Both the position numbers and the translations under genes were made by a program. The notes under the pieces were generated by a model, which was given only the letters and a program-made list of their open reading frames with translations, was not told where the DNA came from and ran no database searches. A stretch of 40,658 nucleotides of DNA from a virus, in IMG/VR virus record IMGVR_UViG_3300043786_000470, positions 1 through 40,658 of that record. The stretch is one strand, 5' to 3'. Positions 2,089-40,580 of this stretch are shown in pieces. Position 1 is the stretch's first letter, and each line of letters begins with the position of its first letter.

Positions 2089-2313
2089 ATGATAGTCAGG
2101 GAAAAAAGTAAGTTGATGATTTACGTCGGGGCTGACCCAACGGGAAAGGCGGGAATACTAAAGAAGGCTATCGGAAATTTTACACAGGCAGAATTAAGGG
2201 GTTGGTACAGTACCAACCCCACATCTGTTAGCCAACACGTTATTTTTACTCCCGAGAAAAAAACCTATGAGCCAAATAAAGAAGACGATTCAAGCAGTAC
2301 CGAACAGGGCTAA
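2089..2313 (+). CDS. hypothetical small protein
   Basis: 74 aa. The first 60 residues look folded (basic N-terminus, then GADPTGKAG and a short amphipathic helix); the last 15 are acidic and Ser-rich and probably disordered. It overlaps the portal start by 47 bases. A perfect 11-bp inverted repeat (2198-2220) lies inside its coding sequence, at the codons for RGWYSTNPTS. No family is recognised. Confidence 0.6.
   Translation: MIVREKSKLMIYVGADPTGKAGILKKAIGNFTQAELRGWYSTNPTSVSQHVIFTPEKKTYEPNKEDDSSSTEQG
2198..2220 (+). other. perfect inverted repeat inside coding sequence
   Basis: GGGGTTGGTAC, one central A, then GTACCAACCCC form a perfect 11-bp inverted repeat. As RNA it would fold into about nine pairs with a 5-nt loop. 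No U tract follows, so simple intrinsic termination is unlikely. It lies about 45 bases upstream of the portal start. Confidence 0.85.
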
Positions 2314-14955: not shown

Positions 14956-15231
14956 TTAAAGTCTTCTAAATTTTTTGTTTGTAAAATCAATTTTACCTAA
15001 TGCTTTGGTAAAGCCAAAAGGCGTTTTGTATTCTTTTTTATTTATTATAATGGTTGTTTTGTAATCATTATAAATTCTATTTAAAACAACTTCAATATTA
15101 TCAATGTCAACAATAGCCATATTATCATTGTGCCAGCCGTTTATTTCAGTATATCCATAATAGAAATGAACTAAAAAACGTCCTGATAATGCTTTACGAA
15201 ATTGAAACATATCTGTTAATTGCTTTTTCAT
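14956..15231 (-). CDS. hypothetical protein
   Basis: 91 aa, basic and mixed alpha/beta, with FGFTKALGKIDFTNKKF near the C-terminus. AT-rich coding DNA. It is the first gene after promoter copy C, with leader AACAAAAACAACCAATCATG nearly identical to that of the 11817 gene. Family unknown. Confidence 0.55.
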   Translation of the reverse strand: MKKQLTDMFQFRKALSGRFLVHFYYGYTEINGWHNDNMAIVDIDNIEVVLNRIYNDYKTTIIINKKEYKTPFGFTKALGKIDFTNKKFRRL

Positions 15232-15310: not shown

Positions 15311-15342
15311 AAAAAAAAAGTGGGAAATAAAATACCTCCCAC
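15311..15342 (-). terminator. intrinsic terminator upstream of promoter copy C
   Basis: On the minus strand GTGGGA, an 11-nt loop and TCCCAC form a 6-bp stem followed by nine Ts. It ends the segment that carries the replication initiator. Confidence 0.85.
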
Positions 15343-15375: not shown

Positions 15376-15621
15376 TTACTTAATTTTTAAGTATTCTTTT
15401 ACTAATTCTAAAAGGTATCTTCTTTTATCAATCAATGCCATTTTTTTAGTATAATTAAAATAATCCTTACCTCTTATTAACTTCCAGTCATGAACGGTTA
15501 ATTTTACTGAAAGTTTAAAAAGTTGTTTTTCAATTTTAGTTAGTAAATCGTTATGTTCTTTAATTTGTGAATTAAAAGCATTTAAAACTTTATCATAATG
15601 ATATAATTCTGATTCTTTCAT
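15376..15621 (-). CDS. hypothetical small helical protein
   Basis: 81 aa, basic, mainly helix (EHNDLLTKIEKQLFKL and KKMALIDKRRYLLELVKEYLKIK). AT-rich. It lies 7 bases after the 15629 gene and before a terminator. Family unknown; a small DNA- or protein-binding role is possible. Confidence 0.5.
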   Translation of the reverse strand: MKESELYHYDKVLNAFNSQIKEHNDLLTKIEKQLFKLSVKLTVHDWKLIRGKDYFNYTKKMALIDKRRYLLELVKEYLKIK

Positions 15622-18517: not shown

Positions 18518-19219
18518 ATGAACTACTTGATTATAACCTCAATTACTGGAAACAAAGACGTACTGGTTGACCCTAATACGACCTTTGATAATTGTACCTA
18601 TGTTGCTTTTGTCGATGAAGTTAACCATGACCTAAATGTTTGGAATCAAGTACAGAATCATCAGTTTAGCATGATTGACCCATTGAAGCATAGACGTAAT
18701 GCGAAGGCTGAAAAAATACTTTGCATTCCACAGGCTTTAAAGATTGACTTTGATTATATCATTTGGCATGACGGGACGCATCAACTGGCAATTCACCCCG
18801 AAGATATTATTAAGGAATACGGCGACGCTGATTTGTATGTTTTCCGTCACGCTCAAAGACGTTGTTTATACCAAGAAATAGCCGCCGTGCTTGAGGGAAA
18901 GTTAGACAATGAAGACCTTGTAAAAAGTCAAATGGAATTTTACCAGCGCGTTGGAATGCCGCCTTATTTTGGGCTATATGAAATGGGGTGCTATATCAGA
19001 AAGGTGAATCAAATTACGATTGATTTTGGTTTGGCTTGGTTTGAACAAGTATGCAAGTTTTCCAGCCGTGATCAGATTTCTTTTCCTTTTGTTCTTTGGA
19101 ACTACGAAGAAAAAATAAAGGTTGCAATCTTAAAAGGCAACTGTTCAAAATATATCGGGACGCCGTTTGAAAACGAGGGCAATAAATATTTTATAAACCA
19201 TGCAAACCACATCAAATAA
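18518..19219 (+). CDS. TOD1/MUCI70 (DUF616)-like glycosyltransferase
   Basis: 233 aa. It resembles the DUF616/TOD1 family: an N-terminal Rossmann-like strand (MNYLIITSITGNKD), LKHRRNAKAEKILCIPQAL (about 56-74), the acceptor motif YIIWHDGTHQL (about 80-90), FRHAQRRCLYQEIAAVLEGK (about 109-128) and GLYEMGCYIRK. D85 in the WHDGT motif could bind metal/sugar nucleotide. It is the first gene of the plus unit and its stop directly abuts the aminotransferase start (TAAATG). It likely transfers a sugar onto a phage or host glycan. Confidence 0.65.
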   Translation: MNYLIITSITGNKDVLVDPNTTFDNCTYVAFVDEVNHDLNVWNQVQNHQFSMIDPLKHRRNAKAEKILCIPQALKIDFDYIIWHDGTHQLAIHPEDIIKEYGDADLYVFRHAQRRCLYQEIAAVLEGKLDNEDLVKSQMEFYQRVGMPPYFGLYEMGCYIRKVNQITIDFGLAWFEQVCKFSSRDQISFPFVLWNYEEKIKVAILKGNCSKYIGTPFENEGNKYFINHANHIK

Positions 19220-20329
19220 ATGATACCATTATTTAAAGTAGCAATGAATCCAGAGGCATCAAAAGCCGTGGAAAAAGTTTTATTTTCGGGCTTTATCGGT
19301 CAAGGGGAAGTGGTGGAGGAATTTGAACGCCAATTAAAACAAAGCTTCAATAATCCTTACCTTGTTACCGTTAACTCTGGAACATCAGCCTTAATATTGG
19401 CATTGAGGCTTATTAAGGATAAACACCCCGAAAAGAAATACATTATATCAACTCCGTTGACTTGCACGGCGACCAACTGGGCAATACTTGCGGCTGGGTT
19501 TGAAATCATTTGGGCAGATATTGACCCGAACACTTTAAATATTTGTCCCTTATCGGTGGCAAAATCTGTTACTCCTTTGGTTGCCGCGGTTATGGTTGTT
19601 CATTGGGGAGGTGCAGCAGCAGACGTAAAGAAAATAAAGTCATTAACGGGACTTGATATTATCGAAGATTGTGCGCACGCCTTCGGTTCATACTATGAAC
19701 TCCCAGCCACTAAAGATGAAAGTACGTTGGTCGGCAACTCAGGAAATTACTGCTGCTTTTCCTTTCAAGCGATAAAGCACCTTACCACGGGTGACGGTGG
19801 ATTGTTGATTTTACCAAATGAAGAAGAATATAAAAAGGCAAAGTTACTTCGTTGGTATGGCATTGACCGTGAAGGTGACAGAAAGGATTTTAGATGCGAA
19901 GCACCGATAAACGATTGGGGTTATAAGTTTCATATGAACGACATAAACGCCGCCATCGGGATTGAGAATTTTAAAATATTTGGGGATAACGTCAGAAGAC
20001 ACCAAAATAATGCTGGGTTTTATGACTGGTGGTTAAATGAAAATAGTAGGTTTATAACCCCTTTATATTTTGACGAAGGCTCATCATATTGGATATATTC
20101 CATTCTGGTTGAGGACAGGGATAATTTTCAAAGGGCAATGAAAGACCGTGGCGTAATGACTTCTCAGGTACATGAGCGGAACGATTTACACCCGTGCGTA
20201 AAGCAATTTAAAACAGAACTACCAAACATTGAACAAGTGATTGGCAATTTGTCGAGCCTTCCAGTTGGTTGGTGGGTGACGGACGAGGACAGGGAATATA
20301 TTGTTAAACAGATAAAAAAGGGTTGGTGA
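19220..20329 (+). CDS. DegT/DnrJ/EryC1/StrS sugar aminotransferase
   Basis: 369 aa, full length for the family. The PLP-binding lysine is K186 in CFSFQAIKHLTTGDGG; D150 and H153 in IIEDCAHAFGS contact the cofactor; NSGTSALILALRL (about 52-64) is the phosphate-binding part. It makes aminosugars from a keto-sugar nucleotide (UDP- or dTDP-linked), with glutamate as usual donor. No partner dehydratase is seen in the phage, so the substrate would come from the host. Its stop TGA overlaps the SSB start as TGATG. Flanked by glycosyltransferase-like genes, it belongs to a glycan-modifying set. Confidence 0.92.
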   Translation: MIPLFKVAMNPEASKAVEKVLFSGFIGQGEVVEEFERQLKQSFNNPYLVTVNSGTSALILALRLIKDKHPEKKYIISTPLTCTATNWAILAAGFEIIWADIDPNTLNICPLSVAKSVTPLVAAVMVVHWGGAAADVKKIKSLTGLDIIEDCAHAFGSYYELPATKDESTLVGNSGNYCCFSFQAIKHLTTGDGGLLILPNEEEYKKAKLLRWYGIDREGDRKDFRCEAPINDWGYKFHMNDINAAIGIENFKIFGDNVRRHQNNAGFYDWWLNENSRFITPLYFDEGSSYWIYSILVEDRDNFQRAMKDRGVMTSQVHERNDLHPCVKQFKTELPNIEQVIGNLSSLPVGWWVTDEDREYIVKQIKKGW

Positions 20330-20712
20330 TGATTAAATTAATTGTAAGTGGTCGCGTCGGTCAGGACGCTGAGGTAAAAAATGTAGGCGATAATACCGTT
20401 TGTTCTTTTTCCGTAGCACACACGGAAAAGATTTACGGTGCAACTCCATCGGAAAAGACTATTTGGGTTACTTGCTCAATTTGGGGTGAACGTGGTGTCA
20501 AACTTGCGCCTCATATTGTAAAAGGTACATTCGTGGTCGTGGAAGGAACAGGCGGGGTGAATGGATACCTAAACAAGAATACTGGAGCAGCCGAAGCTGT
20601 TATTAGGTGTATGGTAAATTCCCTTGAATTTGGAGGCAAGCCAACAACTGGGGAAAATCCAAAGGTAACAGAATCAACGACATTTAAATCAGAATCAGAA
20701 TTTCCTTTTTAA
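20329..20712 (+). CDS. ssb: single-stranded DNA-binding protein
   Basis: 127 aa from ATG at 20329; an earlier TTG at 20323 is in frame, but the ATG overlaps the previous stop and matches the family's start (MIKLIVSGRVGQDAEV). It has the bacterial OB fold: VCSFSVAHTEK, TIWVTCSIWGERGVKLAPHIVKG and GTFVVVEGTGGVNGYLNK. The C-terminus is Ser/Thr-rich and ends SEFPF, close to the acidic tip (DDIPF) that recruits host repair and replication proteins. It is embedded in the sugar gene set, away from the replication unit. Confidence 0.9.
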   Translation: MIKLIVSGRVGQDAEVKNVGDNTVCSFSVAHTEKIYGATPSEKTIWVTCSIWGERGVKLAPHIVKGTFVVVEGTGGVNGYLNKNTGAAEAVIRCMVNSLEFGGKPTTGENPKVTESTTFKSESEFPF

Positions 20713-20713
20713 T

Positions 20714-20896
20714 ATGAATGCTGAAAGAAAAAAAGAATACAGGTTAACCATAAGCGATTATCAAAGAAAAAAGCATTTGGAATATCTCAGAAATAAATAC
20801 AATGCTTTATCACCAGAGAAAAAGGCTGAATTGCTTGCTAAAAGAAAAGCAAATTATCAAGCAAACAAACAAAAAAAGATTAATGGCATATTTTAA
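20714..20896 (+). CDS. Lys/Arg-rich small basic protein
   Basis: 60 aa, largely charged helix: ERKKEYRLTISDYQRKKHLE, then LSPEKKAELLAKRKANYQAN. It resembles the 90-aa protein at 12165 (shared Tyr/Lys spacing and an SPEKKA/TPEEKA motif). Probably binds nucleic acid. Starts 1 base after the SSB stop and overlaps the next gene by 14 bases. Confidence 0.6.
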   Translation: MNAERKKEYRLTISDYQRKKHLEYLRNKYNALSPEKKAELLAKRKANYQANKQKKINGIF

Positions 20897-21422
20897 CTAC
20901 GATATACCATCAAGTTATTATAAAAATAACATCGGTAAGACGTTATATAACACGGTGCTTACAATGAAGCCCAATATTATCATTGAGTTTGGAACATTGC
21001 ACGGTTATTCAGCCGTTGCAATGGCTCAAGCGTTAAGGGAATTAGACAGTGATGGTAAAATAATTTGTTACGATTTATGGAAAAAATACCCTTACAAAAA
21101 TGCTTCAATGGAAAGCACTAAGTCAACTATATATTCCTTAGGGTTGATGAAATACGTTGAATTAATTGAAATGGACTTTTACAACTGGATTCCACAACCT
21201 TTTGACTTGATGCACTTTGATATAAGTAACCATGCGGGGCATTTAAAGTATTTAAAAAACTTAATGGACGGATGGATGCACAAAGGGACAGTCTTGTTTG
21301 AAGGTGGTAGTAAAGAAAGGGACAAGGTCGAATGGATGAAAGATTTTCAACCTATCAATTCATCGGGTATTAACTTTATTACCATTAACGAGGACTTTCC
21401 TTCTTTATCCTTAATGCTATGA
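20883..21422 (+). CDS. class I SAM-dependent methyltransferase (Methyltransf_24-like)
   Basis: 179 aa from ATG at 20883 (MAYFNYDIPSS); an open frame reaches back to 20802 inside the basic-protein gene, but the later start fits the fold and spacing. Motif I is IIEFGTLHGYSAVAMA (about 32-47), with an acidic end of strand 2 in GKIICYDLW (about 58-66) and FDLMHFDIS (about 107-115). Such enzymes are often found beside glycosyltransferases and O-methylate sugars. The substrate cannot be read from sequence. It overlaps the next gene by ATGA. Confidence 0.72.
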   Translation: MAYFNYDIPSSYYKNNIGKTLYNTVLTMKPNIIIEFGTLHGYSAVAMAQALRELDSDGKIICYDLWKKYPYKNASMESTKSTIYSLGLMKYVELIEMDFYNWIPQPFDLMHFDISNHAGHLKYLKNLMDGWMHKGTVLFEGGSKERDKVEWMKDFQPINSSGINFITINEDFPSLSLML

Positions 21423-22123
21423 GGTTAGCCGTTGTCGCCTCAGGTTGGCACTTTCCTTTAGATTTTTATGAATCAGTTGCACGGCAAATCGTTGTCAAAG
21501 ATTGGGAGTACGATTTATTTTGCATCTCACACCGTGACCCAAAGTATTCAAAGGAGGAAAAAAAGGGATTGGCATTAAAGGAATTGGATACTATTCTTTA
21601 TAAAGAAATTGCAACCATTGAGCAGATTAAACAACTGGGCTGGAATTACAAAGAATACCCGAACACGGTTGGCGATTGGGGTTGTTCAAATCAATGGCTG
21701 GAGGAACACAATTTTACGGAATACGATTTGCTTCTTTTTACGCATGATGACAATTTTATTCATAACTACAAATGGTTTGGGAACATCATTCACTTTATGG
21801 ACGGCGATTGGGAAATCCTTTCCAATTCCTGTGGCGATCCTGTTGGTTGGCTTCGGGGAAGTTGCGAGTTCTTTAAGCCTTCTTTACTACAAAAGATTGG
21901 CGGCAAGTTTGATTTATCATTGGTGACCTTAAACAGGGAAGAAGAAGTTTATTCACCAGATAAATGGGTTGATATTTTTGATTGGAATAATACAGTACAC
22001 CCGTTGATGAAGTTTATATCGGAAAACAAAATAGTAGTTGGGCATCTGTCAAACACGTACAGGCATTCAATGTTTGTGTCCGAGGGTGAACGTGGATTTA
22101 TTTCCCCAATTTTAAAAAAATAA
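21419..22123 (+). CDS. putative glycosyltransferase (GT-A-like)
   Basis: 234 aa. An N-terminal strand-helix unit (MRLAVVASGWHFPLDFYESV) precedes DLLLFTHDDNFIHN (about 104-117), where HDDN is a candidate DxD-type metal motif. LRGSCEFFKPSLLQKIGGKFD is typical of the acceptor half of GT-A enzymes. Later parts are Trp/Asp-rich. It overlaps the methyltransferase by ATGA. Probably adds a sugar to the same glycan as its neighbours. Confidence 0.6.
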   Translation: MRLAVVASGWHFPLDFYESVARQIVVKDWEYDLFCISHRDPKYSKEEKKGLALKELDTILYKEIATIEQIKQLGWNYKEYPNTVGDWGCSNQWLEEHNFTEYDLLLFTHDDNFIHNYKWFGNIIHFMDGDWEILSNSCGDPVGWLRGSCEFFKPSLLQKIGGKFDLSLVTLNREEEVYSPDKWVDIFDWNNTVHPLMKFISENKIVVGHLSNTYRHSMFVSEGERGFISPILKK

Positions 22124-22126
22124 TAT

Positions 22127-22134
22127 TATATTTG
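22127..22134 (+). promoter_or_regulatory. TAnnTTTG -7 box, internal promoter
   Basis: TATATTTG, a perfect -7 consensus, lies in a gap of 29 bases between genes, 18 bases before the ATG at 22153. It is followed by an A-rich leader. It could give separate expression of the small gene and those after it. Confidence 0.6.
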
Positions 22135-22152
22135 TATAATAATTTAAAAAAA

Positions 22153-22323
22153 ATGAACACAACAAAACCTCAAGAAATGTACGGGGTAACCTTTCGAAAC
22201 AAGGTTATAAGAGAAAGGCTGCTGGATATTCAATTTGATTTATGGAAGGCAACAGGGAAAAAGCACTCAATGGAAGCAGTCCTTGAAGTCTTATTGAATA
22301 CCTACAAAAGTATAAATAAATGA
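22153..22323 (+). CDS. small ribbon-helix-helix-like protein
   Basis: 56 aa from ATG at 22153 (MNTTKPQEMYGVTF); a frame beginning at 22132 lies within the promoter and is less likely. A strand (MYGVTFRN) then helix-turn-helix-like parts (IRERLLDIQFDLWKATGKKH, SMEAVLEVLLNTY) fit a short ribbon-helix-helix regulator. Having its own promoter supports a regulatory role, possibly at the conserved operators. It overlaps the next gene by ATGA. Confidence 0.45.
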   Translation: MNTTKPQEMYGVTFRNKVIRERLLDIQFDLWKATGKKHSMEAVLEVLLNTYKSINK

Positions 22324-23324
22324 GGATTGGCATAGTTTGTAATTTAAGCAGCCCAACCACCGACTACTATCGCACGGTGAACCCATTTATTAGGCTTCGC
22401 GATATTTTCCCTCAGTATGCCATTAAAATGATTAACCCCGATACCGTTAAGTGGTATGATTTTTATGACGTCGATGTTGTTATCTTCCAGCGTGCCAATG
22501 GTAACGATTTACTTGGAATGATTAACGAGGTCAAGCGAATGGGTAAAAAGATTATCTTAGACCATGACGACCTATTACACGAGGTTAGTGCAGCCAACCC
22601 AGCAAGTCAACATTTTAACAAGCCTCAGGTAAAAGAATCAGTCGAAAAGGCTTTCAAATACGCTGATTGGGTTATGACCTCAACACCGTACCTAAAAGAA
22701 TTTTACTCCCAGTTTTTTGACAAAGATAAAATTACCGTTGTTCCCAACGCCATTGACTTTACCGTTACACCGATGCAGCCTGTAAAACGGGATAAGTTGA
22801 TGGACGCAAAAAAACGAGTTATGTGGCGCGGATCTCAAACGCACCTTGAAGACCTTGCAACGGTTAAAAACTTTTGGATTGAGTTACAAAAAAACGACAA
22901 GGTTGAATTAGGAATGGTTGGTTTAGCTGATTGGCTGGGGAAAACATTGTACCCTAAAGCAATTATTGTGCCGTGGAATAATTCATTGTTCCAATACTTT
23001 GAAATGGTTAAACACTCAGCGCCACACTATGGCGTATTCCCTTTAACGATTGACAATTTTAATCAAGCGAAGTCAAATAATTTTGCGATGGAAATGTTAG
23101 TTGCTGGTTGCATTTCTTACGCGCCTGAGGAAATCAAGGAGTTTAATATTCCAGGGGTGCGGACATATAAAAACGAATTAGATTTAATCCACAAATTTAC
23201 TAAGGCTTTAGACAAAGATGATGCGTACTTTGTTGACTTAGAGGCTGGACGCAAATGGCTAAAGGAAGAAAGGGACTTGGTTAAAGTGAATGAATTAAGG
23301 ATTAACGTATTAAACGCTATATGA
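22320..23324 (+). CDS. glycosyltransferase, GT-B/GT4-like
   Basis: 334 aa. N-terminal Rossmann unit MRIGIVCNLSSPTTDYYRTV; ILDHDDLLHEV (about 79-89) and NAIDFTVTP (about 138-146, following ITVVPN) are the linker and start of the second domain, as in group-1 glycosyltransferases. KKRVMWRGSQTHLEDL resembles the G.....K.l..L part; the conserved EMLVAGC with preceding NFAMEM (about 255-265) is the sugar-nucleotide-binding E..E/A.A region. It would transfer a sugar from a nucleotide donor. It overlaps both neighbours by ATGA. Confidence 0.75.
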   Translation: MRIGIVCNLSSPTTDYYRTVNPFIRLRDIFPQYAIKMINPDTVKWYDFYDVDVVIFQRANGNDLLGMINEVKRMGKKIILDHDDLLHEVSAANPASQHFNKPQVKESVEKAFKYADWVMTSTPYLKEFYSQFFDKDKITVVPNAIDFTVTPMQPVKRDKLMDAKKRVMWRGSQTHLEDLATVKNFWIELQKNDKVELGMVGLADWLGKTLYPKAIIVPWNNSLFQYFEMVKHSAPHYGVFPLTIDNFNQAKSNNFAMEMLVAGCISYAPEEIKEFNIPGVRTYKNELDLIHKFTKALDKDDAYFVDLEAGRKWLKEERDLVKVNELRINVLNAI

Positions 23325-24763: not shown

Positions 24764-24965
24764 TTTTATAAAGGTTTTAAGATTTTTAAAAATCATGGAA
24801 AGAAGATTGGTAACAAGGGATTATGAACAATTCCCTTTTTACCAACGTCGATTCAATAAATATAATCCTTTGTCTTACATTGCGATACCAATGTTATATT
24901 TAATTTCATGGGAAATGCCTAATTGGAATATGGTAAAAAGCGGATATTTTTTTAAATGGAAATAA
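24756..24965 (+). CDS. hypothetical small protein between terminase genes
   Basis: 69 aa, Tyr/Phe-rich, basic N-terminus (IMERRLVTRDYEQFPFYQRR), then a moderately hydrophobic stretch (YIAIPMLYLISW, about 41-52). It overlaps the small subunit by 8 bases and TerL by 10. AT-rich compared with both neighbours. Family unknown. Confidence 0.5.
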   Translation: MSSFIKVLRFLKIMERRLVTRDYEQFPFYQRRFNKYNPLSYIAIPMLYLISWEMPNWNMVKSGYFFKWK

Positions 24966-26185
24966 AGGTTAGTGAAAAGTACGAAGCCCTTTGGCAACCG
25001 AAAACCCGTTACTTCCTTATAACTGGGGGACGTGGTTCGGCGAAGTCATTTACCGTTGGGCTTTGGGCTTGTAATATGCTACTTGCAAACAAAGGCTGGA
25101 AGGTACTTTTCACACGTTATACGTTATCAAGTGCAAACATTTCCGTGATACCTGAGTTCAGGGAAAAGATTGACTTGCTCGGCGTCGGTGATGAATTTCA
25201 AATGACGAACGCGCAAATAAGCCACAAGGTAACGGGGAGTGAAATAATATTCTCAGGCATCAAGACAAGTTCTGGAAACCAAACGGCAAAGTTAAAATCA
25301 ATACCAGCGTTGAACGTGTTCATCGTTGATGAGGCTGAAGAATTTGTAAGCGAAAAGGATTTTGATACCATTGACGAATCAATCAGAATGCCTGACACCC
25401 CAAACATTGTAATACTGGTCATGAACCCTCAGGACGTAGAACATTGGATTTGGAAGCGGTGGTTTGAAAAATCGCATCGCATGGAAATCATTGATGGGCA
25501 AATGATACCGATAAGCACACATCCCGATATAACGCACATACATACGACGTACTTTGATAATTACCACAATCTAAGCAAAGATTACTTAAATAAGATTGAA
25601 CAAATAAAAAGCCAATACCCTGAGGCATACGCGCATAGGTTCTTAGGTAAATGGCTGGATAAGAAACAAGGGGTGATATTTGACAACTGGGTCGAGGGGG
25701 AGTTCGATGTCAGTCTGCCTTTTGGTTACGGCTTAGATTTCGGCTTCTACCCCGATCCGTTGGCATTGGTAAAAGTGGCGGTTGACAAAGGGGCAAAGAA
25801 AATATACGTGGAGGAAGTGATTTATAAACAATCGCTTTCTTATGAGCAAGTCATTGAGCAAATGAACCATTTCGTTAGCCCCAACGCTATGATAATTGCG
25901 GATACCAGCGAACCACGTTTGATTGAAGCTTTGCAGCAAAGAGGATTGAATGTGCAAAAGGCAGAGAAAGGGGCTGGGTCAATCGTGGAAGGAATAAAGA
26001 AAATGCTGGATTATCAAATCATTGTGACACCAGAGTCGTATAACTTGAAGCATGAGTTAAGGAATTACATTTGGAACGACCGCAAATCTTCCACGCCCTT
26101 AGACGCCGATAACCATGGAATTGACAGTCTTAGGTACTCAGCGATGCGTTTATTACAAGGCAGCGATTTACTTGCATTTAATTAA
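24956..26185 (+). CDS. terL: large terminase subunit (PBSX/Terminase_3 type)
   Basis: 409 aa. ATPase: Walker A GGRGSAKS (24-31), Walker B VFIVDEAEE (121-129), coupling motif near VILVMNP (152-158). Nuclease: D261 in GYGLDFGFYPDP, D316 in MIIADTSEP and D390 in NHGIDSLRY form the RNase H-like triad. It pumps DNA into the prohead through the portal and cuts the concatemer. Both domains are complete. Its separation from portal and capsid genes by the whole tail module is unusual. Confidence 0.93.
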   Translation: MEIKVSEKYEALWQPKTRYFLITGGRGSAKSFTVGLWACNMLLANKGWKVLFTRYTLSSANISVIPEFREKIDLLGVGDEFQMTNAQISHKVTGSEIIFSGIKTSSGNQTAKLKSIPALNVFIVDEAEEFVSEKDFDTIDESIRMPDTPNIVILVMNPQDVEHWIWKRWFEKSHRMEIIDGQMIPISTHPDITHIHTTYFDNYHNLSKDYLNKIEQIKSQYPEAYAHRFLGKWLDKKQGVIFDNWVEGEFDVSLPFGYGLDFGFYPDPLALVKVAVDKGAKKIYVEEVIYKQSLSYEQVIEQMNHFVSPNAMIIADTSEPRLIEALQQRGLNVQKAEKGAGSIVEGIKKMLDYQIIVTPESYNLKHELRNYIWNDRKSSTPLDADNHGIDSLRYSAMRLLQGSDLLAFN

Positions 26186-26692: not shown

Positions 26693-26985
26693 CAGATAAA
26701 GAAAAGGCGTTACTTATCATTGACTTAATTGCAAAGATTACTCAGGAAATCATTGACAAGCCAATGCAACGCAAAAGATTATTACAAATGCGTGGACACC
26801 TTGAAAAAGCCGTGAAGCTAACAGGGAACGGAATCAAAAGGGAATGGTCACGCCCTCCGTCGCTTCCATTGGTTAGCCACGCGAAAGCAGAACCAGTTCC
26901 TTTCGTGCCTACAACAACCGAAACCAATGGCGATTTATTGGCTGATAATATTCCCGTGATAACCAAAAAAGCAAGGAAAAGATAA
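26689..26985 (+). CDS. hypothetical protein upstream of the tail chaperone
   Basis: 98 aa. N-terminal helix (EKALLIIDLIAKITQEIID), a basic centre (MQRKRLLQMRGHLEKAVKL), and a Pro-rich, probably disordered C-terminal half ending TKKARKR. Its stop overlaps the chaperone start as TAATG. Family unknown; a virion-assembly accessory role is possible. Confidence 0.5.
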   Translation: MTDKEKALLIIDLIAKITQEIIDKPMQRKRLLQMRGHLEKAVKLTGNGIKREWSRPPSLPLVSHAKAEPVPFVPTTTETNGDLLADNIPVITKKARKR

Positions 26986-27866
26986 TGGTAGTATTTAACA
27001 TCGGAAACAAACAAATCAAGTACAATTACCCCGAAACGGCGGCGGATATTACATTGGAGCAATACATTTACTTTGCCAAGTTCCTTTTGCCTGAGCACCC
27101 CAAAGTTGAATTGGAAGCGATTCAATACATGAACGAAAGGGACGCGGTGTATCAAAAGATTTTACCGTATGCAAAGAAGTTAAAAGTTAATACAAAAAAC
27201 GCTGAGCAAATCGACGTTGTTTATGACTTAGGCAAAATATTACAAGAACAGGAAGTTAAGGATAATGTTAGACGTTTCCTTCCTTCTTTAATTGACCAAT
27301 GGAATACACTTGATAAAGAACTTACAACACGGTTGGAAATCATGGACGAGGTCTGGGAGGCAAAAGAAAGATACCCGTACATGGCAAAGGTGGTAAACTA
27401 CTTTACAGGCATTCCCCTTGATGCTTGCTTTGGTAAGGTTGCTGATAGCTTAGAATTAAAATACCTTGTATTTATTTACAGTAAGATAATGAACGCTATC
27501 AATACGCCAGCCGAAACAAAGTATAAGCAACTGTACGATTTTAACGGTAAGGTTTACACCCTTCCAGAAAGGTTAATGGAAAAATCCACGCTCCTTGAGT
27601 TTACAATGGCGGCTCAGTATGACAAGGCAATGAATCAAGTGAAAAACGGAGATCCTGCGGGGTTGCTTAACATCATGGCGGTATTATTAAAACCATTGGG
27701 CGAAGATTATTCAGACGAACTCTTTGAGCAAAACAGGGTAGACTTTTTACAAATGTCCTTGCAGACATCCTATGAGGTTGCTTTTTTTTTGACGAAGTTA
27801 AGCGAGAGATATACCTTAGATTTGCAGACCTCTATGTTGCAAAGGGCGATGGAAAATCTCAATTAG
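26985..27866 (+). CDS. tail assembly chaperone, zero-frame product
   Basis: 293 aa, mainly helical after an N-terminal beta start (MVVFNIGNKQIKYNYPETAA). The gene sits after the terminase and ahead of the tape measure, the place of lambda G. Near its 3' end is a slippery T TTT TTG (27785-27791); the zero frame then ends 25 codons later, while the -1 frame stays open for 90 codons. Such gene pairs make a major short and a minor long chaperone that coat the tape measure during tail assembly. The family is not confirmed by motif; the frameshift layout is the evidence. Confidence 0.7.
   Translation: MVVFNIGNKQIKYNYPETAADITLEQYIYFAKFLLPEHPKVELEAIQYMNERDAVYQKILPYAKKLKVNTKNAEQIDVVYDLGKILQEQEVKDNVRRFLPSLIDQWNTLDKELTTRLEIMDEVWEAKERYPYMAKVVNYFTGIPLDACFGKVADSLELKYLVFIYSKIMNAINTPAETKYKQLYDFNGKVYTLPERLMEKSTLLEFTMAAQYDKAMNQVKNGDPAGLLNIMAVLLKPLGEDYSDELFEQNRVDFLQMSLQTSYEVAFFLTKLSERYTLDLQTSMLQRAMENLN
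27785..27791 (+). other. -1 frameshift slippery heptamer T TTT TTG
   Basis: In the zero frame the codons are GCT TTT TTT TTG ACG, so T TTT TTG fits the X XXY YYZ rule. It is part of a run of nine Ts (27782-27790). Confidence 0.75.
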
Positions 27867-28063
27867 CAAGTGAAAGGCTTAATGAAAAATACGGTTGGTA
27901 CTTAACAATTAAGAAAGTGGCAGAATCTGGATTGTTTAATTTAAGCGGTTATACACCTATGGAATCAGCAGAAAAAGCAAAATTGTATCAAGTCTTTCAA
28001 TACCTTGCGAGCAAAGCAGCCGAGGAAAAGGTTATTGAAGACCTATCAAAGCAAAAGAAATAA
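27791..28063 (+). CDS. -1 frame extension of the tail assembly chaperone (GT-like)
   Basis: After slippage the -1 frame encodes 90 residues beginning DEVKREIYLRFADLYVAKGD and ending EDLSKQKK, giving a fusion of about 359 aa (1-269 of the short form plus 90). The sequence is helical, charged and protein-like, with no start codon of its own near the 5' end. Its stop TAA at 28061 overlaps the next gene's ATG at 28063 as TAATG, the same coupling used across this operon, which strongly supports translation of this frame. Equivalent to lambda GT. The alternative, an assembly error in the T run, would make one continuous gene. Confidence 0.75.
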   Translation, partial: DEVKREIYLRFADLYVAKGDGKSQLASERLNEKYGWYLTIKKVAESGLFNLSGYTPMESAEKAKLYQVFQYLASKAAEEKVIEDLSKQKK

Positions 28064-30087
28064 TGAATATACGCGAGATAAGTGACGTTTTCAAAGATAC
28101 GGCAAACCAAATCACCGCTATAAAAAGCTATAATTTTGGTTGGGCTTCTGACAGAACACGTTCAAGTAACACGGAGGATTACCAGGAGTTAAACGAATTT
28201 CCAAGGGTTTTCTTTTCCGTGCCAACGATTATCGGCTCAGACCAAACACGGAAACAGGACACCTATCAAGTGACTTTGTTCTTTGATGACTTACTGGGTT
28301 ACGATAACAATGGCGATGCCGACCTTACCTTGCAATTAGACAAGTGGGCAACCTTGCAAGTTTATGCCACGGCTTTTATTCAGCGGTTGAATTTGATTAA
28401 ACAAAGCATTTTACCAAACTACATTTTTATTCCCGATGCTCCAGCAATGACCTTTGATTCCTTTACGGGTTTACAAAGATTAGTCACGGTGCAAGTAACT
28501 TTTAATTTGGTTGTTCCTACGAATTGTGAAGTACAGGTAAGTAAATTAATAACTGTTGTTGGAAACATTATTGCTTCTGCTTCTGTTATTGCAGAACTTA
28601 CCAATACAAATAATCAAAAATTAATTGACGCTTATGCCGAGGCGGTTGCAAATACGGATTCAAGGGCACAAATTAGCCGTAAAATAAATGCCTTAGGTAC
28701 TGCCATTGCAACATCTTCGGCTGAGGCTGGGTTAAATATGACCTTTGTTTCTTCCGTTTTGGCAACTGCCTTCACCGATGCCAATGCGTTTTTAATAAAC
28801 ATCTTAAACGCCGAAGCCCTTGCAGAAGCGCAAAGTAATGCAAGTGCAATGGCATCAATAGGTGTTAATGCCTCAACTATCGCCACGGCAACGTCAACGG
28901 CTTTAGCGGGATTAAATATTACCTTTGTCAGTAACATTGTAGCAACGGCAATAACCACGGCAGATGCCGACATTGTTTTACCAGCCAACACGGTTGAGGC
29001 AAATGTAACAGGCACGGCAGATGACACAGGGGCAATCCTTCGCCTTCCAAAGTGGGACAAGGCAAACTACGACACAGCGGACATTGATGACACATTGGCA
29101 TTTGTTGATTCGTATGACGCGGTGCAGACAAATGTTGCAAGTACGTTTGGGAGTGTTGCTGGAAATTTTAAGTATTATGGTGGCGTATTAGCACCTAATG
29201 GTAAAATTTATGGAATACCTCAATCTATAACTTCTATTTTAGAAATAGACCCTTCAAATAATACAACATCTACTTTTGGTAGTATTACTGGAAGTAGTAA
29301 ATTTTGGGGCGGTGTTTTAGCAGCTAATGGTAAAATTTATGGAATACCATATAATGCAACATTTATTTTAGAAATAGACCCTTCAAATAATACTACATCA
29401 ACTTTTGGGAGTTTAACTGGGGGTGGTAAATGGGTTGGTGGTGTTTTAGCACCAAACGATAAAATTTATGCCATACCTTTTAGTTCAACATCTATTTTAG
29501 TAATAGACCCTTCAAATAATACAACATCTACTTTTGGAAGTTTTGAAGGAAGTAGTAAATGGGCTGGAGGTGTATTAGCACCTAATGGTAAGATTTATGC
29601 AATACCCGAAGATAGAACATCTATTTTAGTAATAGACCCATCTAATAATACTACTTCAACTTTTGGAAGTTTTACAGGAAGTACGAAATGGCATGGAGGT
29701 GTATTAGCACCTAATGGTAAGATTTATGCAATGCCCGAAGATAGAACATCTATTTTACAAATAGACCCTTCAAATAATACAACATCTACTTTTGGAAGTT
29801 TTACAGGAAGTACTAAATGGCGAGGCGGTGTTTTAGCACCAAACGGTAAAATTTATGGAATACCATTTAGTGCAACATTTATTTTAGAAATAGACCCTTC
29901 AAATAATACAACATCTACTTTTGGAAGTTTATCATCAGCAATATCAAATAAATGGGTTGGCGGTGTATTAGCGCCTAATGGAAAGATTTATGGAATACCT
30001 TATAACATAATATCTATTCTCCAAATCCTTGACTCAGTCACAATAAATGAAAACTTCCCTCTCTCACGTCTTTATAATAAATTATAA
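28063..30087 (+). CDS. tail protein fused to a seven-bladed beta-propeller
   Basis: 674 aa in three parts. Residues 1-155 resemble small tail terminator or completion proteins (NEFPRVFFSVPTI, then the helix LQVYATAFIQRLNLIKQ). Residues 160-310 are Ala/Asn-rich repeats with two near copies of AGLN(M/I)TFVS..(L/V)ATA. Residues 360-660 hold seven repeats of 43 aa, GGVLAPNGKIYGIP, SILxIDPSNNTTSTFGS, predicted to close into a seven-bladed propeller. The propeller is probably exposed and may bind host glycans. Starts by TAATG overlap with the frameshift product. Confidence 0.6.
   Translation: MNIREISDVFKDTANQITAIKSYNFGWASDRTRSSNTEDYQELNEFPRVFFSVPTIIGSDQTRKQDTYQVTLFFDDLLGYDNNGDADLTLQLDKWATLQVYATAFIQRLNLIKQSILPNYIFIPDAPAMTFDSFTGLQRLVTVQVTFNLVVPTNCEVQVSKLITVVGNIIASASVIAELTNTNNQKLIDAYAEAVANTDSRAQISRKINALGTAIATSSAEAGLNMTFVSSVLATAFTDANAFLINILNAEALAEAQSNASAMASIGVNASTIATATSTALAGLNITFVSNIVATAITTADADIVLPANTVEANVTGTADDTGAILRLPKWDKANYDTADIDDTLAFVDSYDAVQTNVASTFGSVAGNFKYYGGVLAPNGKIYGIPQSITSILEIDPSNNTTSTFGSITGSSKFWGGVLAANGKIYGIPYNATFILEIDPSNNTTSTFGSLTGGGKWVGGVLAPNDKIYAIPFSSTSILVIDPSNNTTSTFGSFEGSSKWAGGVLAPNGKIYAIPEDRTSILVIDPSNNTTSTFGSFTGSTKWHGGVLAPNGKIYAMPEDRTSILQIDPSNNTTSTFGSFTGSTKWRGGVLAPNGKIYGIPFSATFILEIDPSNNTTSTFGSLSSAISNKWVGGVLAPNGKIYGIPYNIISILQILDSVTINENFPLSRLYNKL
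29140..30042 (+). repeat. seven tandem 129-bp propeller-blade repeats
   Basis: Units start at 29140, 29269, 29398, 29527, 29656, 29785 and 29914, each 129 bp (the last slightly longer). They share long identical stretches such as AATAGACCCTTCAAATAATA. The variation lies mainly after GIP/AIP (for example QSIT, YNAT, FSST, EDRT, FSAT), a loop position between strands. High DNA identity implies recent duplication or gene conversion. Confidence 0.95.
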
Positions 30088-30932
30088 TGTACAAAAGCGA
30101 AAAAATAAACGAAATTATATCCTATATCAAGGACAAAAAGAAGGCAACCCAAGCCGCCTTGAAGCCTTACCTTGTCATTGCTCAGCCTCGACGTGATGCA
30201 AAGGAACAGGCAGCGCAAAGTTTTGTCGGAGACAAGTCAGCGATAACGACATGGTGCAGCTACAAGTATATAAATATTAGTGGACAACTTGTTGACGTGG
30301 CTCGTAATGCTTTGGCAGAAAAAGCCATTCAACTTGAGGCAAAGTATTTGTTATTAGTTGGTGAAGATACGGTCATGCCTTATTACGGCTTTGAGGAGTT
30401 ACACAGGACTTGCGAAGAAAACCCAAACACGGTAGCAAGTGGCGTGTATTATTTCAAGGAAGCTGGGGCAATGGTTTTAATTACGGATAAAGACGGTTAC
30501 AGATGCACGGCAAATGTTGACCCAGACCAAATGATTCTTAATCCAATGCTCATCGGCATGGATGCTATGTTAATTCCTGTAAGCATATTAAAGGAATTAA
30601 AGGAAAAAGAACCAGACTGCCCTTTCTTTTGCGTGGTTTCTGAAACGGAAAACACGCCATTTGTTGGCGAAGATGAATGGTTTTTACACTTGCTTTACAA
30701 AAACGGTTATAATTGCATTGTTAATACCAATGTTCAATGTTTGCACATGGATTTGGCAACGGGAAATTATAATGCTCATCCAGATGTTAACCTTGATGAT
30801 TACGTTTGTGAGATAAAACCAAATAGGCGTTTAACTTGCGCAGATAGACATTACTTGCATAAAAGGTGGAACGACAGAGTTCCAAAACCAGAATTATTGA
30901 CAGAAAAAAACATTACAAAACAAAATAAATAA
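30087..30932 (+). CDS. GT-A-like glycosyltransferase in the tail module
   Basis: 281 aa. VDVARNALAEKAIQLEAKYLLLVGEDTVMP (about 68-97, here broken by key points: R72, GED at 91-93) is the pattern of GT-A enzymes that read a nucleotide sugar. ASGVYYFKEAGAM and the final HMDLATGN add to this. A related set of phage GT-like proteins lies near tail fibre genes and may modify virion or host glycans. Begins with TAATG overlap with the propeller gene and ends 2 bases before the next gene. Confidence 0.6.
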   Translation: MYKSEKINEIISYIKDKKKATQAALKPYLVIAQPRRDAKEQAAQSFVGDKSAITTWCSYKYINISGQLVDVARNALAEKAIQLEAKYLLLVGEDTVMPYYGFEELHRTCEENPNTVASGVYYFKEAGAMVLITDKDGYRCTANVDPDQMILNPMLIGMDAMLIPVSILKELKEKEPDCPFFCVVSETENTPFVGEDEWFLHLLYKNGYNCIVNTNVQCLHMDLATGNYNAHPDVNLDDYVCEIKPNRRLTCADRHYLHKRWNDRVPKPELLTEKNITKQNK

Positions 30933-35515: not shown

Positions 35516-38500
35516 ATGGCAGAAAAGGTAATAGGTTTTAAAATCCAGATTGAAGGTTTAGCGGGAACGATTGAAACGGCAACGCAATTAAAAAGGCAAA
35601 TCGCCGATATAAATTCCGAGTTAAAAAAGACGGCGGACGTTGACGAAATCAAGAAACTTGAAAAGAAGTTAGTCGATTTAAAGGCGGCTCAGTCACTTGT
35701 TAACGATGTCACACGGGAACAAGTTAAATTAAGGAAGGAAGAAATTGCGGGGATTGACAAAAGCGAAGGGGCATATCGTCGTTTATCAAAGGAATTAAAC
35801 GACCAACGGAAAAGATATAAGGATTTAGCAGCCGCCGAACAGGCATCAAGTCAGGAGGCAAGAGATTTAATTGTATCCATTGGTGCATTAGATAAGAAGT
35901 TAAAAGGCATTGACGCAAATGTTGGACAATTTCAAAGGAATGTCGGTGGATATACTGAAGCCTTATCAAACTTTTTCCCTAAACTTAGCGGAACATTAGG
36001 TCAGGTAACAGGGGCGATTGGTGGAATACAAAACGGTTTTGCAAATTTAAGCAAGTCCTCAGGCGCTTTGACAACGGGACTTGGTGGTATCGGTATTGCA
36101 TTAACCGCTTTTCAAGCTATTAGTGAAATTGTTGGAAGCCTTATCGAAGCCGCAAGGGCAACAAAAGAGTTATCGGCTCAGGTTACAAACTTTACACAAA
36201 TTACAGGCGATGAACTTGAAGCCGTTGTCGCAACAAGTCAAGCTATTGCGGTCACTTACGGTAAGAATGTCGATGAAATTGTTGTAGCAGCTAATAGCGC
36301 AAGTAAGGCATTGGGTATTTCTTTTGCTCAGGCTTTGGACGTGGTTGAAATTGGATTCAGAAAAGGTGCGGATGCTCAGGGACAATTCCTTGACGGCTTG
36401 AAAGAATATTCTGTTCAATTTAGAGATGCTGGATTAAGTGCTGAAGATTTTTTAAGGGTATCCATTGCCTCGGCAAATGAAGGTATATTTTCAGACAAAG
36501 GACTTGACGCGGTTAAGGAATTTGGGTTAAGAATACAAGAACAAACAAAGGGTTCAAAGGATGCTTTAACCAATGCTTTTGGCGAAGAATTTACAAGTCA
36601 ATTATTTGAGAATATAAATAACGGCTCAGTAACATCGGGTCAGGCTTTTGGATTAGTTACCGATAAAATAACAGAAACAGGGATAGCAGGCTCGCAGCTT
36701 CAAACGGTTATTGCCAATGTTTTTGGCGCACCTGGGGAAGACATTGGAAAGGATTTTATTATAACCTTAGGCGATGTTTTACAAAGTACGGACGATGTCA
36801 CTTTATCAACCAACCTTTACCAAAAGCAACAAGAAGAATTATTTAAAGTAAATGAGCAATTAAAAATAAGTGAGGTCGCTTATAATACAACCCTTGCAAC
36901 AACAGGCGTTGAATTTGAGATTGCAACGGCAAAGGGTAAGATATTTTTAAATAGTGTTTTGTCTGGAATACTTGGATACTTTGAACAAGTTCCAAACCGT
37001 TTAAATGCTTATAAAAAAGCCTTCGCAGAATTTACAAAGCCTGAGGGTTCAATCCTTTCCTTCTTTAAAGTTTTTAATCAGCAGATAAAAGATGGAAACA
37101 AGGAAATAAATTTAATAAACAAAGAAGCGTTAATTGAACAAGAAAAAAATGCAAAAGCACAGGCAGCAGCAGCATTAAATACTCAGGCTGGTTTAGAACA
37201 AAAGTTATCTGATTTAAGAAAACAAAGAAAAGTTGTATTATTTGGCAGCCCTGAATTTAAAAAGTTAGACGTTGAAATTGCCAAAGTTGATGAACAATTA
37301 AGGAAATTTAAACCCGAGGTTATTGTAACTAAAGCAGGAACAAAAGCTGGTGAAACAATAGCTAAGTCATTTGTCGATGGCTCAATCGCCGCACTTGAAA
37401 ATGAACGAGGAAAATTACAACAGGCTTTTTCAAATGCAGTTGCTGGTTCTGGAACTCAAAAAGAATTAGCGGTAAAATTAAATGCAATTAATATTCAAAT
37501 CAAAGATGCAGTTGAACAACAAAATCAAATATTAGCGGATGCGTCAAGGGGTAACTTGCTTAAAAACTTGCAACAAGCACAACAATTAGCAACTTTACCT
37601 TTGACAATTAAACCTTTAAAAAGTATAAAGCAAAGTGATTTAGATAAAAAAGAAGCCGAGGAAATAAAAAAGGTTCAGCAAGATGTTATTAAGTCATCAG
37701 ATGAGGCTAATAAAATAAGAATTGATAAAGAAAATAAAGCACAACAGGAGTTATACGAAAACAGACAAAAAAATATTGCTTTAGCTGGTGAAGGTGCTAT
37801 GGCATTGACAAATTTATTTTCAACAATTCAATCAGCAAAATTTAAAAAGGATGCTGAAATACTAAACGAAGAAATACGTAAAACAGAAGAAAGTATTGCA
37901 ACACTTGAAGCCAAAGCAGAAAAAGCAAGTGGATTAAAAAAGAAGAGATTAGAAAAAGAAATTATTCAAGAAAAAGCATTACTTGAGGAAAAAAATAAAG
38001 CAGCCGAAGCATTACAATTAAAGGCAGCAAAGGATGAAAAAAAGATAGCTATTATTCAATCAATTATCCAAGGCGCTTTGGCTGTTCAGCGTGCTTTATC
38101 TTTTCCTCCTGGTCCTCCAGTAACGATTGGGTCTGCCATTGCTACTGGAGTTTTATCTGCAATACAAACCGCAACAATAGCCGCTCAACCCCTTGCGGAA
38201 GGTGGCGTCGTGACTGGTGAAAGAATTAACCGTAAACAAAACATTCCCACACGTTCAAACGGTGACAATGTACTTGCGTATGTAAAACGAGGTGAGGTTG
38301 TATTGAACCAACGGCAACAAAGTTTATTAGGCGGTTCACCAACCTTTAGGCGTATAGGGATAAAAGGATTTGCCGAGGGTGGTTTAGTGCCTCCAATTTC
38401 TGCACCAATACAAGCCTTATCAGGAAACAATGATTTAAGCAACTTTTTACAAGTGATTGAGGCAAAGACCGACGCAATTAATAATCGAATTGACAGGCTT

Positions 38501-38578
38501 CAAGCTTACGTCGTTTCGGATGACATTGCAAGGGATCTCGCTGAAGGGAATAAACTTAAAGTAAAAGCAACTTTATAA
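35516..38578 (+). CDS. tail tape measure protein
   Basis: 1020 aa, the longest gene. N-terminal coiled coil with LKRQIADINSELKKTADVDE (about 24-43) and further heptads; a Gly/Ala-rich hydrophobic segment around 180-210 (GLGGIGIALTAFQAISEIVG); helical middle (360-560) and a second coiled coil (700-820). The C-terminal region has Gly-rich AEGGVVTGERI and FAEGGLVPP repeats plus NGDNVLAYVKRGEVVLN, typical of tape measure ends. Length would predict a tail of about 150 nm at the usual 0.15 nm per residue. Confidence 0.9.
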   Translation: MAEKVIGFKIQIEGLAGTIETATQLKRQIADINSELKKTADVDEIKKLEKKLVDLKAAQSLVNDVTREQVKLRKEEIAGIDKSEGAYRRLSKELNDQRKRYKDLAAAEQASSQEARDLIVSIGALDKKLKGIDANVGQFQRNVGGYTEALSNFFPKLSGTLGQVTGAIGGIQNGFANLSKSSGALTTGLGGIGIALTAFQAISEIVGSLIEAARATKELSAQVTNFTQITGDELEAVVATSQAIAVTYGKNVDEIVVAANSASKALGISFAQALDVVEIGFRKGADAQGQFLDGLKEYSVQFRDAGLSAEDFLRVSIASANEGIFSDKGLDAVKEFGLRIQEQTKGSKDALTNAFGEEFTSQLFENINNGSVTSGQAFGLVTDKITETGIAGSQLQTVIANVFGAPGEDIGKDFIITLGDVLQSTDDVTLSTNLYQKQQEELFKVNEQLKISEVAYNTTLATTGVEFEIATAKGKIFLNSVLSGILGYFEQVPNRLNAYKKAFAEFTKPEGSILSFFKVFNQQIKDGNKEINLINKEALIEQEKNAKAQAAAALNTQAGLEQKLSDLRKQRKVVLFGSPEFKKLDVEIAKVDEQLRKFKPEVIVTKAGTKAGETIAKSFVDGSIAALENERGKLQQAFSNAVAGSGTQKELAVKLNAINIQIKDAVEQQNQILADASRGNLLKNLQQAQQLATLPLTIKPLKSIKQSDLDKKEAEEIKKVQQDVIKSSDEANKIRIDKENKAQQELYENRQKNIALAGEGAMALTNLFSTIQSAKFKKDAEILNEEIRKTEESIATLEAKAEKASGLKKKRLEKEIIQEKALLEEKNKAAEALQLKAAKDEKKIAIIQSIIQGALAVQRALSFPPGPPVTIGSAIATGVLSAIQTATIAAQPLAEGGVVTGERINRKQNIPTRSNGDNVLAYVKRGEVVLNQRQQSLLGGSPTFRRIGIKGFAEGGLVPPISAPIQALSGNNDLSNFLQVIEAKTDAINNRIDRLQAYVVSDDIARDLAEGNKLKVKATL

Positions 38579-39194: not shown

Positions 39195-40580
39195 ATGACA
39201 TACGCGGACTATCCAGACACGGCAAAAAATAACGCAAGGCGCGCACTTGACCATAAGAAAAATGGTTCGAATTGTGGAACGCGTGTCGGCTGGTTAAGGG
39301 CAAACCAAATCGCAAACGGCGAAGGCTTGTCGGAAGATACCGTCCAAAGAACTTACAGTTTTCTTTCCCGTGCGGAAACGTATGACCAAGGAAAATACTT
39401 TGATGAAGATGGAAATGAAATTTGTGGTTCAATAATGTACGACGCATGGGGTGGTTCTGCGATGAGGGATTGGGCTGAAGCAAAGTTTAAAAAGATTGAA
39501 AGAGAAAAGGAAAGTAAAGCGATGGCAAAATTTAATATTGATATTTTAGGGGAAATTTCTGAATCTGTTAATTCGTACAATGCAGTACAAAGGGAAATTA
39601 ACAACGCGAAGGGCAAAGAAATTAATTTAGTTATATCTTCTGGAGGTGGCTCAGTTACCGAAGGAATGGCGATAGCTGATTTAATTGCTAATTACCCTGA
39701 GGAAACCACGGCAACAGGAATCGGACTCGTAGCGAGTATTGCAACGGTTGTACTGTTGTCTGCGGATAATGTTAAAATGACTGAGAACGCCTTCATGATG
39801 ATTCACCGACCTTGGAGTTATACGATGGGTAACGCCGACGAACTTGAGGCAACGGCTGAATTGTTAGACAAGATGGAGGCAAAGTTATTGGACATTTATA
39901 CCGCCTCCGTTTATAAGCGCAAAGGGAGACAGAAAGACCTTGAAAACAAGATTACACAAATGATGGCAGCCGAAACATGGTTGACCGCACAGGAAGCATT
40001 AGAGTTTGGTTTCATTGATGAAATTGTAAAAGTTGGCGAAAAAAATATTGATTTATTACCGTTGCAAAATAGCCTAAACAAATTTCTAAATGTACCAGCT
40101 GCATTATTAACCAACAATAAAAAAAATGATGACATGGGTAATTCCATTTTAGAAAAAATCAAATCGCTTTTAAATAATATGGACGATAAAGAAAATATCG
40201 AAAATGTTATGCAAGAAGAAGAGGAGATGAAAAAAGACGAACCAAAGAACGACGAGGTTGGCGATGCCATCCAAATGTTAAAAGACAATGGCTACTTTGT
40301 AATGTCTCCCGAAGAAATGGAGGCAATTCATTCAAAGCAAAAAGAGGAAATGGAATCGATGTACAAGAAGACCGATGAACAAAAGAACTCGATTAATGAA
40401 ATTGAAACAGTTCTGGAAACATTGGGCAAAGAATTAGTAGCCCTTAGGGCACAAGTTAAAAAAGGCGTTGGGCTTCCTTCGGGCGGGACAACGGCTGAAA
40501 AGATTATTGAAACAAAAGCAAAATTGAGTCCCTTTGATTCTTTTGCTTCATTAGTTAAATCTAAAATTTCACAAAGATAA
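39195..40580 (+). CDS. prohead protease (ClpP-type) fused to scaffold
   Basis: 461 aa in three parts. Residues 1-105 are a domain with YPDTAKNNARRALDHKKNGS, GTRVGWLRANQIANGE and YDAWGGSAMRDWA, known from phage head-protease fusions. Residues 112-285 are a ClpP-like serine protease: SSGGGSVTEG oxyanion loop, nucleophile Ser in LVASIATVVL (about residue 181), His in MMIHRPW (about 199), then QEALEFGFIDEIV. Residues 300-461 are acidic coiled coil with a basic end, a scaffold. It would form the prohead core and clear it before packaging. Its final codons form the terminal repeat. Confidence 0.88.
   Translation: MTYADYPDTAKNNARRALDHKKNGSNCGTRVGWLRANQIANGEGLSEDTVQRTYSFLSRAETYDQGKYFDEDGNEICGSIMYDAWGGSAMRDWAEAKFKKIEREKESKAMAKFNIDILGEISESVNSYNAVQREINNAKGKEINLVISSGGGSVTEGMAIADLIANYPEETTATGIGLVASIATVVLLSADNVKMTENAFMMIHRPWSYTMGNADELEATAELLDKMEAKLLDIYTASVYKRKGRQKDLENKITQMMAAETWLTAQEALEFGFIDEIVKVGEKNIDLLPLQNSLNKFLNVPAALLTNNKKNDDMGNSILEKIKSLLNNMDDKENIENVMQEEEEMKKDEPKNDEVGDAIQMLKDNGYFVMSPEEMEAIHSKQKEEMESMYKKTDEQKNSINEIETVLETLGKELVALRAQVKKGVGLPSGGTTAEKIIETKAKLSPFDSFASLVKSKISQR

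Follow-up and report, generated by a model that had tools for sequence, protein, structure and literature searches.

A probable −1 frameshift at a conserved T run in a tail-module gene of phages of Bacteroidota-type hosts

The sequence analyzed here, referred to below as the window, is the whole of an IMG/VR virus record (IMGVR_UViG_3300043786_000470; 40,658 nucleotides) and belongs to a tailed phage. Its recognizable genes include those for the portal (positions 2267-3694), the terminase large subunit (24956-26185, plus strand; PHROGs E 3.5e-44), the tape-measure protein (35516-38578, plus strand; Pfam PhageMin_Tail E 3.9e-9, with relatives that carry the tape measure annotation) and the head protease (39195-40580). 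The host is probably a member of the Bacteroidota, because the most similar terminase in bacterial genomes (88% identity) is encoded on a 4,186-base contig, L104, binned as a Bacteroidia MAG, and the closest phage terminases are those of Riemerella and Nonlabens phages (45-47%). Genes resembling glycosyltransferases, aminotransferases and methyltransferases are found at 18518-23324 and 30087-30932; one glycosyltransferase-like gene is located within the structural module.

The gene examined in this study begins on the plus strand with an ATG at 26985 and continues in the zero frame to a TAG at 27864-27866 (ORF 26985-27866), thus encoding a product of 293 aa, the shorter, G-like form. Near its end, the codons GCT TTT TTT TTG (27780-27791) contain an uninterrupted run of nine T residues (27782-27790, plus strand), followed by G27791. 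Two in-frame heptamers overlap inside this stretch, T_TTT_TTT at 27782-27788 and T_TTT_TTG at 27785-27791, both on the plus strand. A TGA closes the −1 frame just before 27776, from which position it stays open to the TAA at 28061-28063; it contains a T-like extension of 90 codons (27791-28060) plus the stop codon (27791-28063, plus strand); joined to the upstream part, it would form a fusion of 359 aa. Over 25 codons (27792-27866, plus strand) the DNA can be read in both frames. The extension carries the motif KYGWYLTIKKVAESGLF in near relatives, and a motif of the KWGWY type recurs across the family. The TAA overlaps the start codon of the next gene at 28063 as TAATG (28061-28065, plus strand), and in 55 of the 78 representatives of the family an ATG starts within −1 to +2 of this stop. 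Rereading of the sequence bore out the initial annotation as to the position of T_TTT_TTG in the zero frame, the zero-frame end, the open −1 frame with its TAATG overlap and the lengths of both extension and fusion; the overlapping T_TTT_TTT was not mentioned in that annotation. Among the T runs (at least 6) and A runs (at least 7) listed for the window, the sole other run of nine is located at 15311-15319, between the minus-strand ORFs 14956-15231 and 15376-15621.

The following gene (28063-30087, plus strand) encodes 674 aa and contains DUF6923 repeats in its C-terminal part (Pfam E 1.4e-9). Its counterpart in four distant relatives comprises just 152-220 aa, and the gene of the window may represent a fusion confined to phages of this group.

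Near relatives were collected as 35 related IMG/VR loci, 29 of which reach the junction (in the remaining six the contig ends before the site), and all 29 contain T9. A pattern with fixed flanks that allowed T7 to T15 matched 29 contigs, largely the same ones, and each match was 34 bases long, corresponding to T9. In the most divergent near relative, L033, the fusion is 59% identical to that of the window; a Ser codon replaces the Ala codon before the run, and T9 is retained. In another locus, L055 (3174 onward), approximately the first 20 residues do not agree with its nearest relative, L096, which gives the impression of a rearranged or misread start region.

The coding signal of the two frames was assessed in a set of 25 full-length sequences, all distinct. 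Past the zero-frame stop, third positions of the −1 frame have a diversity of 0.245, compared to values of 0.029 and 0.038 for the remaining codon positions. In the overlap, third-position diversity of the −1 frame falls to 0.090 (permutation p = 0.0009), and synonymous differences amount to 0.087 (−1 frame) and 0.068 (zero frame), versus 0.218 and 0.230 in the stretches read in a single frame. As judged from these comparisons, the −1 frame encodes protein and, in the overlap, both frames are under constraint; the low level of synonymous differences in both suggests that both products are probably maintained by selection. A purely RNA-level constraint may also account for the overlap signal. 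When codon identity with L033 alone was considered, the overlap showed no significant rise (8/14 versus 92/186 elsewhere, p = 0.39). Comparison of the −1 frame among relatives had been proposed as a check on the initial annotation, and the frame proved to be conserved as well as coding; together with the constraint on both frames, this conservation argues for a programmed −1 shift that joins the two frames, as originally suggested. The locus thus appears to be one gene that gives two products with a common N-terminus, the shift occurring close to where the upstream ORF ends.

Database searches with the window's own sequences returned little. The zero-frame ORF by itself gave no significant family match, and the window protein gave none in Pfam, PDB sequences or, using profile A1, genome contigs; profile A1 also yielded weak matches in 6 of 395 genomes. 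A tblastn search against phages with this protein returned nothing, another search produced just Pectobacterium matches at E 1, and nothing in NCBIfam came near a cut-off. Profile A8 matched two PDB entries at E 0.21 and 0.87 and profile A9 none, while a further IMG/VR scan with profile A11 confirmed no relative.

More distant members were reached by way of the terminase. In two genomes obtained in this manner, the profile of the window's family gave weak matches (E 0.0075 and 0.083), and both loci were organized like that of the window: the zero-frame ORF has two Phe residues close to where it ends, and a long T run, a −1 extension bearing a WG-type motif and the next gene follow in this order. 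Terminase-bearing loci were then scanned for homopolymers near ORF ends (at least six T or A, or at least five G or C, being required, after which matches with the WG-type motif were taken). Among many matches, six loci besides L033 contained such an extension, all with T9: L072 (which is Nonlabens phage P12024L), L107, L109, L110, L116 and L161. Profile comparison across the junction between the window's family and five of the distant T9 loci gave an hhalign probability of 97 and an E-value of 4.4e-11, and the two are therefore considered homologous.

In P12024L, gp40 and gp41 (L072 11206-11900; JQ823123.1) are annotated as separate hypothetical genes, with T9 at their junction as in the window. 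The two halves of the corresponding fusion match phrog_32199 (E 2.7e-106) and phrog_38404 (E 4.8e-43), both of unknown function, and from their sequence gp40 and gp41 look like two frames of one frameshifted gene. Across the family, 25 of 28 zero-frame members scanned match phrog_32199 and 6 of 26 extensions match phrog_38404; the window protein itself reaches E 0.13 with the latter, below significance.

The collection was enlarged by two broad scans of IMG/VR, for which peptide patterns located before the junction were used. In one of them, 594 of the 600 stretches examined, among the matches listed, encode a relative, so that there are at least 594 such stretches. Of the confirmed stretches, the best 80 of 594 were taken from one scan and the best 80 of 585 from the other, the two scans overlapping in contigs; together with the earlier loci they provide 196 parsed records, corresponding to 170 distinct sequences at 99.9% and 78 clusters at 70% identity. 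Whichever T run was longest in the final part of the zero frame was taken to be the junction run, with the fusion then built in the −1 frame. Under this parsing the motif was absent in 6 of 79 cases, five with a variant motif and one (L314) cut off, and L317, in which a stop lies inside the zero frame, was left out of the 196 records, with T9 visible there too. The run is T9 in 171 records, T10 in 24 and T12 in one, and is never shorter; its codon phase is 2 in 148 records, 3 in 36 and 1 in 12. Of 75 records inspected for the extension motif, all 71 that have it carry it in the −1 frame (the remaining 4 were without the motif). T_TTT_TTT occurs in frame in all 196 records. All counts refer to one homologous family, in which the window's "group" and the "more distant set" are descriptive labels and not clades.

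The more distant set derives largely from a search of 399 genomes of one bacterial family with a zero-frame profile, which matched 37 genomes, mostly at E 0.0003 to 0.01. Thirty-two loci were read, comprising 30 parsed loci (28 of them from this search, five of whose matches gave no locus) and two in-frame fusions. L390 was parsed and has no motif, and in L388 the zero frame is broken upstream (60 aa). The junction was found in 29 of the 30 loci, as T7 in 20 (L254 being one locus with T7), T8 in four and T9 in five, always in phase 3 with T_TTT_TTT in frame; at 70% clustering, this translates to 13 T7 and 3 T9 clusters. Three further genome loci, L363-L365, contain T9. Homology of the more distant set to the window's group is suggested by modest E-values, a shared layout and a likeness of the extensions judged by eye. 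Unshifted homologues were also observed. In L253 (269 aa), the extension is read in one continuous frame, with an hhalign E-value of 4.4e-7 to the five-member profile, and in L368 and L369 both parts are in one frame, the C-terminal part being judged by eye.

The explanation that we favor, with moderate confidence, is a programmed −1 ribosomal frameshift at the T run that would give rise to the 293-aa and 359-aa products, a chaperone pair by analogy. Most translation would terminate at the TAG ending at 27866, thereby producing the 293-aa protein, and a fraction of ribosomes would slip at the T run into the −1 frame and read on to the TAA ending at 28063, whereby the protein would gain some 90 residues as a C-terminal domain. 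In the proposed slip, two tRNA-Phe on the TTT TTT of T_TTT_TTT (27782-27788) would re-pair one base back; a slip one codon later, at T_TTT_TTG, is a possible alternative. The initial annotation had taken T_TTT_TTG as the slippery heptamer. Its position stands, but it does not hold as a family element: the heptamer common to the parsed members with a shift (196/196 records of the window's group, 29/30 of the more distant loci and also L363-L365) is T_TTT_TTT, three bases earlier, and the run is followed by A, G or C, depending on the relative. A slippery sequence at the junction is hence conserved among relatives, and in the same 196 records and 29 loci it takes the form of an in-frame X_XXY_YYZ heptamer. 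The ribosome is favored as the slipping agent because this heptamer is shared by the shifted members and because T7 is phase-locked in the more distant set, which, as far as its sequences indicate, keeps the in-frame heptamer and not the run length, as would be expected of ribosomes. Both the agent and the ratio of the two products are inferred.

Examination of the RNA around the site failed to reveal a downstream stimulatory structure. Among 45 representatives the mean z score was +0.16 (60 nt) and +0.14 (90 nt), with −0.46 for an upstream control, and a consensus fold of 17 sequences showed two-sided change in 1 of 26 pairs, away from the slip site. A candidate hairpin around the slip site, GAGGTTGC/GCAGACCTC, was discarded as unsupported, since its columns hardly vary; L033 breaks two of its pairs. 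The missing downstream structure is no obstacle to ribosomal frameshifting, since phage P2 shifts at T6G with, in the part of the source available, no hairpin found at its −1 site (PMC3091744), and some tailed phages seem, according to excerpts of another account, to manage without a stimulator (PMC5009743).

Slippage of RNA polymerase is the main rival, and we regard it as a serious possibility, though one with less than an even chance. According to this scenario, the polymerase would stutter on T9, some mRNAs would carry U10, and ordinary translation of these would yield the 359-aa fusion; the window's group would then have moved from the ribosomal heptamer, or added to it. The length of the run is in keeping with such a process. 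The window and all 196 records of its group (170 distinct sequences, 78 clusters) possess an uninterrupted run of at least nine, in all three phases, whereas T7 in phase 3 or T8 in phase 2 would suffice for the heptamer. Even the phase-3 records, most of which come from the family of the window itself (5 clusters at 70%), show T9 in 36 of 36. Where Leu follows the run, its codon is TTR and not CTN in 10 of 10 phase-2 and phase-3 representatives (background 0.589, p = 0.005; these are 70% clusters and partly dependent); an eleventh Leu case is in phase 1, where T9 is the minimum, and uses CTN. Long runs are also scarce in 397 other genes of the loci of the 78 representatives, as compared with 60 synonymous shuffles: T runs of at least nine number 0, versus 5.0 expected (range 1-11), and A runs of at least nine number 3, versus 27.7 expected (19-36), approximately nine times rarer. 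The failure to find RNA structure near the site is likewise compatible with slippage of the polymerase. In the portions of the literature available to us, bacterial RNA polymerase is described as slipping efficiently in vivo at nine A or T (PMC5009743), "Tn, n > 8" is cited for programmed transcriptional realignment (PMC3711429), and selection against runs appears at nine nucleotides in many genomes (PMC1088944).

Several observations weigh against slippage of the polymerase. In the more distant set, T7 occurs in a single phase in 20 of 29 loci, and the run is shorter than nine in 24 of 29. Among the 78 representatives there are 60, with T9 in phase 2, whose run may be a by-product, since the heptamer in the protein context V/L/I-F-F-Y/W/S can yield it; this account applies less readily where Leu comes after the run. 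The scarcity of runs in other genes may reflect replication errors. A historical version, whereby recoding by the ribosome, as in the distant loci with their phase-locked T7, gave way to recoding by RNA polymerase in the window's group, where the run is T9 or longer and in any phase, is put forward only tentatively and seems to us rather doubtful; if true, this would be a transcriptionally recoded tail chaperone. The available excerpts of the open-licence literature on tail chaperones, phage tails or Bacteroidetes that treats transcriptional slippage or realignment describe no polymerase-slipped tail chaperone.

Three further explanations are improbable to increasing degrees. The extension could be translated independently, as a gene that starts internally, which the separate gp41 annotated in Nonlabens phage P12024L would imply; the GTG at 27917 would yield 48 aa. 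This, however, is the earliest ATG, GTG or TTG in the open −1 frame, whereas conservation begins at the junction, and the existence of the in-frame fusions (L253 and, by eye, L368 and L369) also renders a separate gene quite unlikely. Long homopolymers are mutable, and the T run might therefore serve as a phase-variable switch through replication slippage; but contigs of the window's own family contain only T9 (29 contigs, under the pattern that allowed T7-T15), and we consider such a switch very unlikely. Homopolymers are also error-prone, and an assembly or sequencing error, or a mutation of a single phage, in a true T10 sequence with one long ORF is the least credible of all. The initial annotation had named ten Ts, as a simple assembly error, among the findings that would overturn its claim. 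Such an origin is contradicted by the presence of T9 in each of the 29 distinct contigs, by the constraint on both frames and by other members that keep the −1 relation with T7, T8, T10 or T12. Since many related phages keep the arrangement, comparison of their sequences indicates that it is a programmed feature and not a sequencing error.

By analogy, a tail assembly chaperone role of the G/GT type is likely for this gene, and under the favored ribosomal frameshift its two products would probably act as a chaperone pair, in the manner of lambda G/GT and P2 E/E+E'. The initial annotation had drawn the parallel with lambda, and the resemblance in arrangement is upheld. Similarity to lambda gpG or P2 gpE and adjacency to the tape-measure gene did not materialize, and the function thus continues to be argued by analogy. 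Profile comparison with gpG and gpE yielded nothing, and the gene is situated between the terminase and the tape measure (35516-38578), several genes upstream of the latter. For these two reasons we do not file the gene as a member of the G/GT type, although it would appear to work like a G/GT pair. Known tail chaperones share little sequence, according to the part of the source available (PMC5009743). Among 28 members scanned, one reached E 0.058 with Phage_TAC_7 and two matched phrog_166 (tail protein), the better at E 0.0043. Two AlphaFold models each had a mean pLDDT of 57; a BFVD match to A0A1B1IQJ1 (E 8e-4; TM scores of 0.21 and 0.27) was set aside. Chaperone-like genes that precede the tape measure in Elizabethkingia and Bacteroides phages showed no relation to the gene of the window.

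The gene differs from each of the known systems that it resembles. In lambda, the −1 frameshift occurs at GGGAAAG rather than at a T run, gpG comprises 140 aa as opposed to the 293 aa of the zero-frame product, with no detectable similarity between the two, and G/T adjoins the tape-measure gene, unlike the gene of the window. The P2 site, TTTTTTG, is closer, as the window also contains T_TTT_TTG and no downstream structure was found in either; P2, however, has T6 compared to at least T9 in the window's group, its gpE shows no detectable similarity, and its E+E' directly precedes the tape-measure gene, again unlike the gene of the window. Genes known for transcriptional slippage (Thermus dnaX, Shigella spa13, IS elements and Citrobacter tssM) likewise have a long uninterrupted A/T run and two products per gene, with nine in Thermus dnaX and 11 A in Citrobacter tssM, according to excerpts of the sources (PMC5009743, PMC1088944, PMC4256274). 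They differ in that they are not phage tail genes, and the more distant relatives of the window gene have T7.

The present findings add, for phages of Bacteroidota-type hosts, a large and functionally uncharacterized family of frameshifted tail-module genes, and gene calls such as gp40 and gp41 of P12024L would be corrected accordingly. The family also offers a natural contrast, between T7 in one phase and T9 or longer in any phase, in which one may ask when one mode of recoding, ribosomal or transcriptional, gives way to the other.
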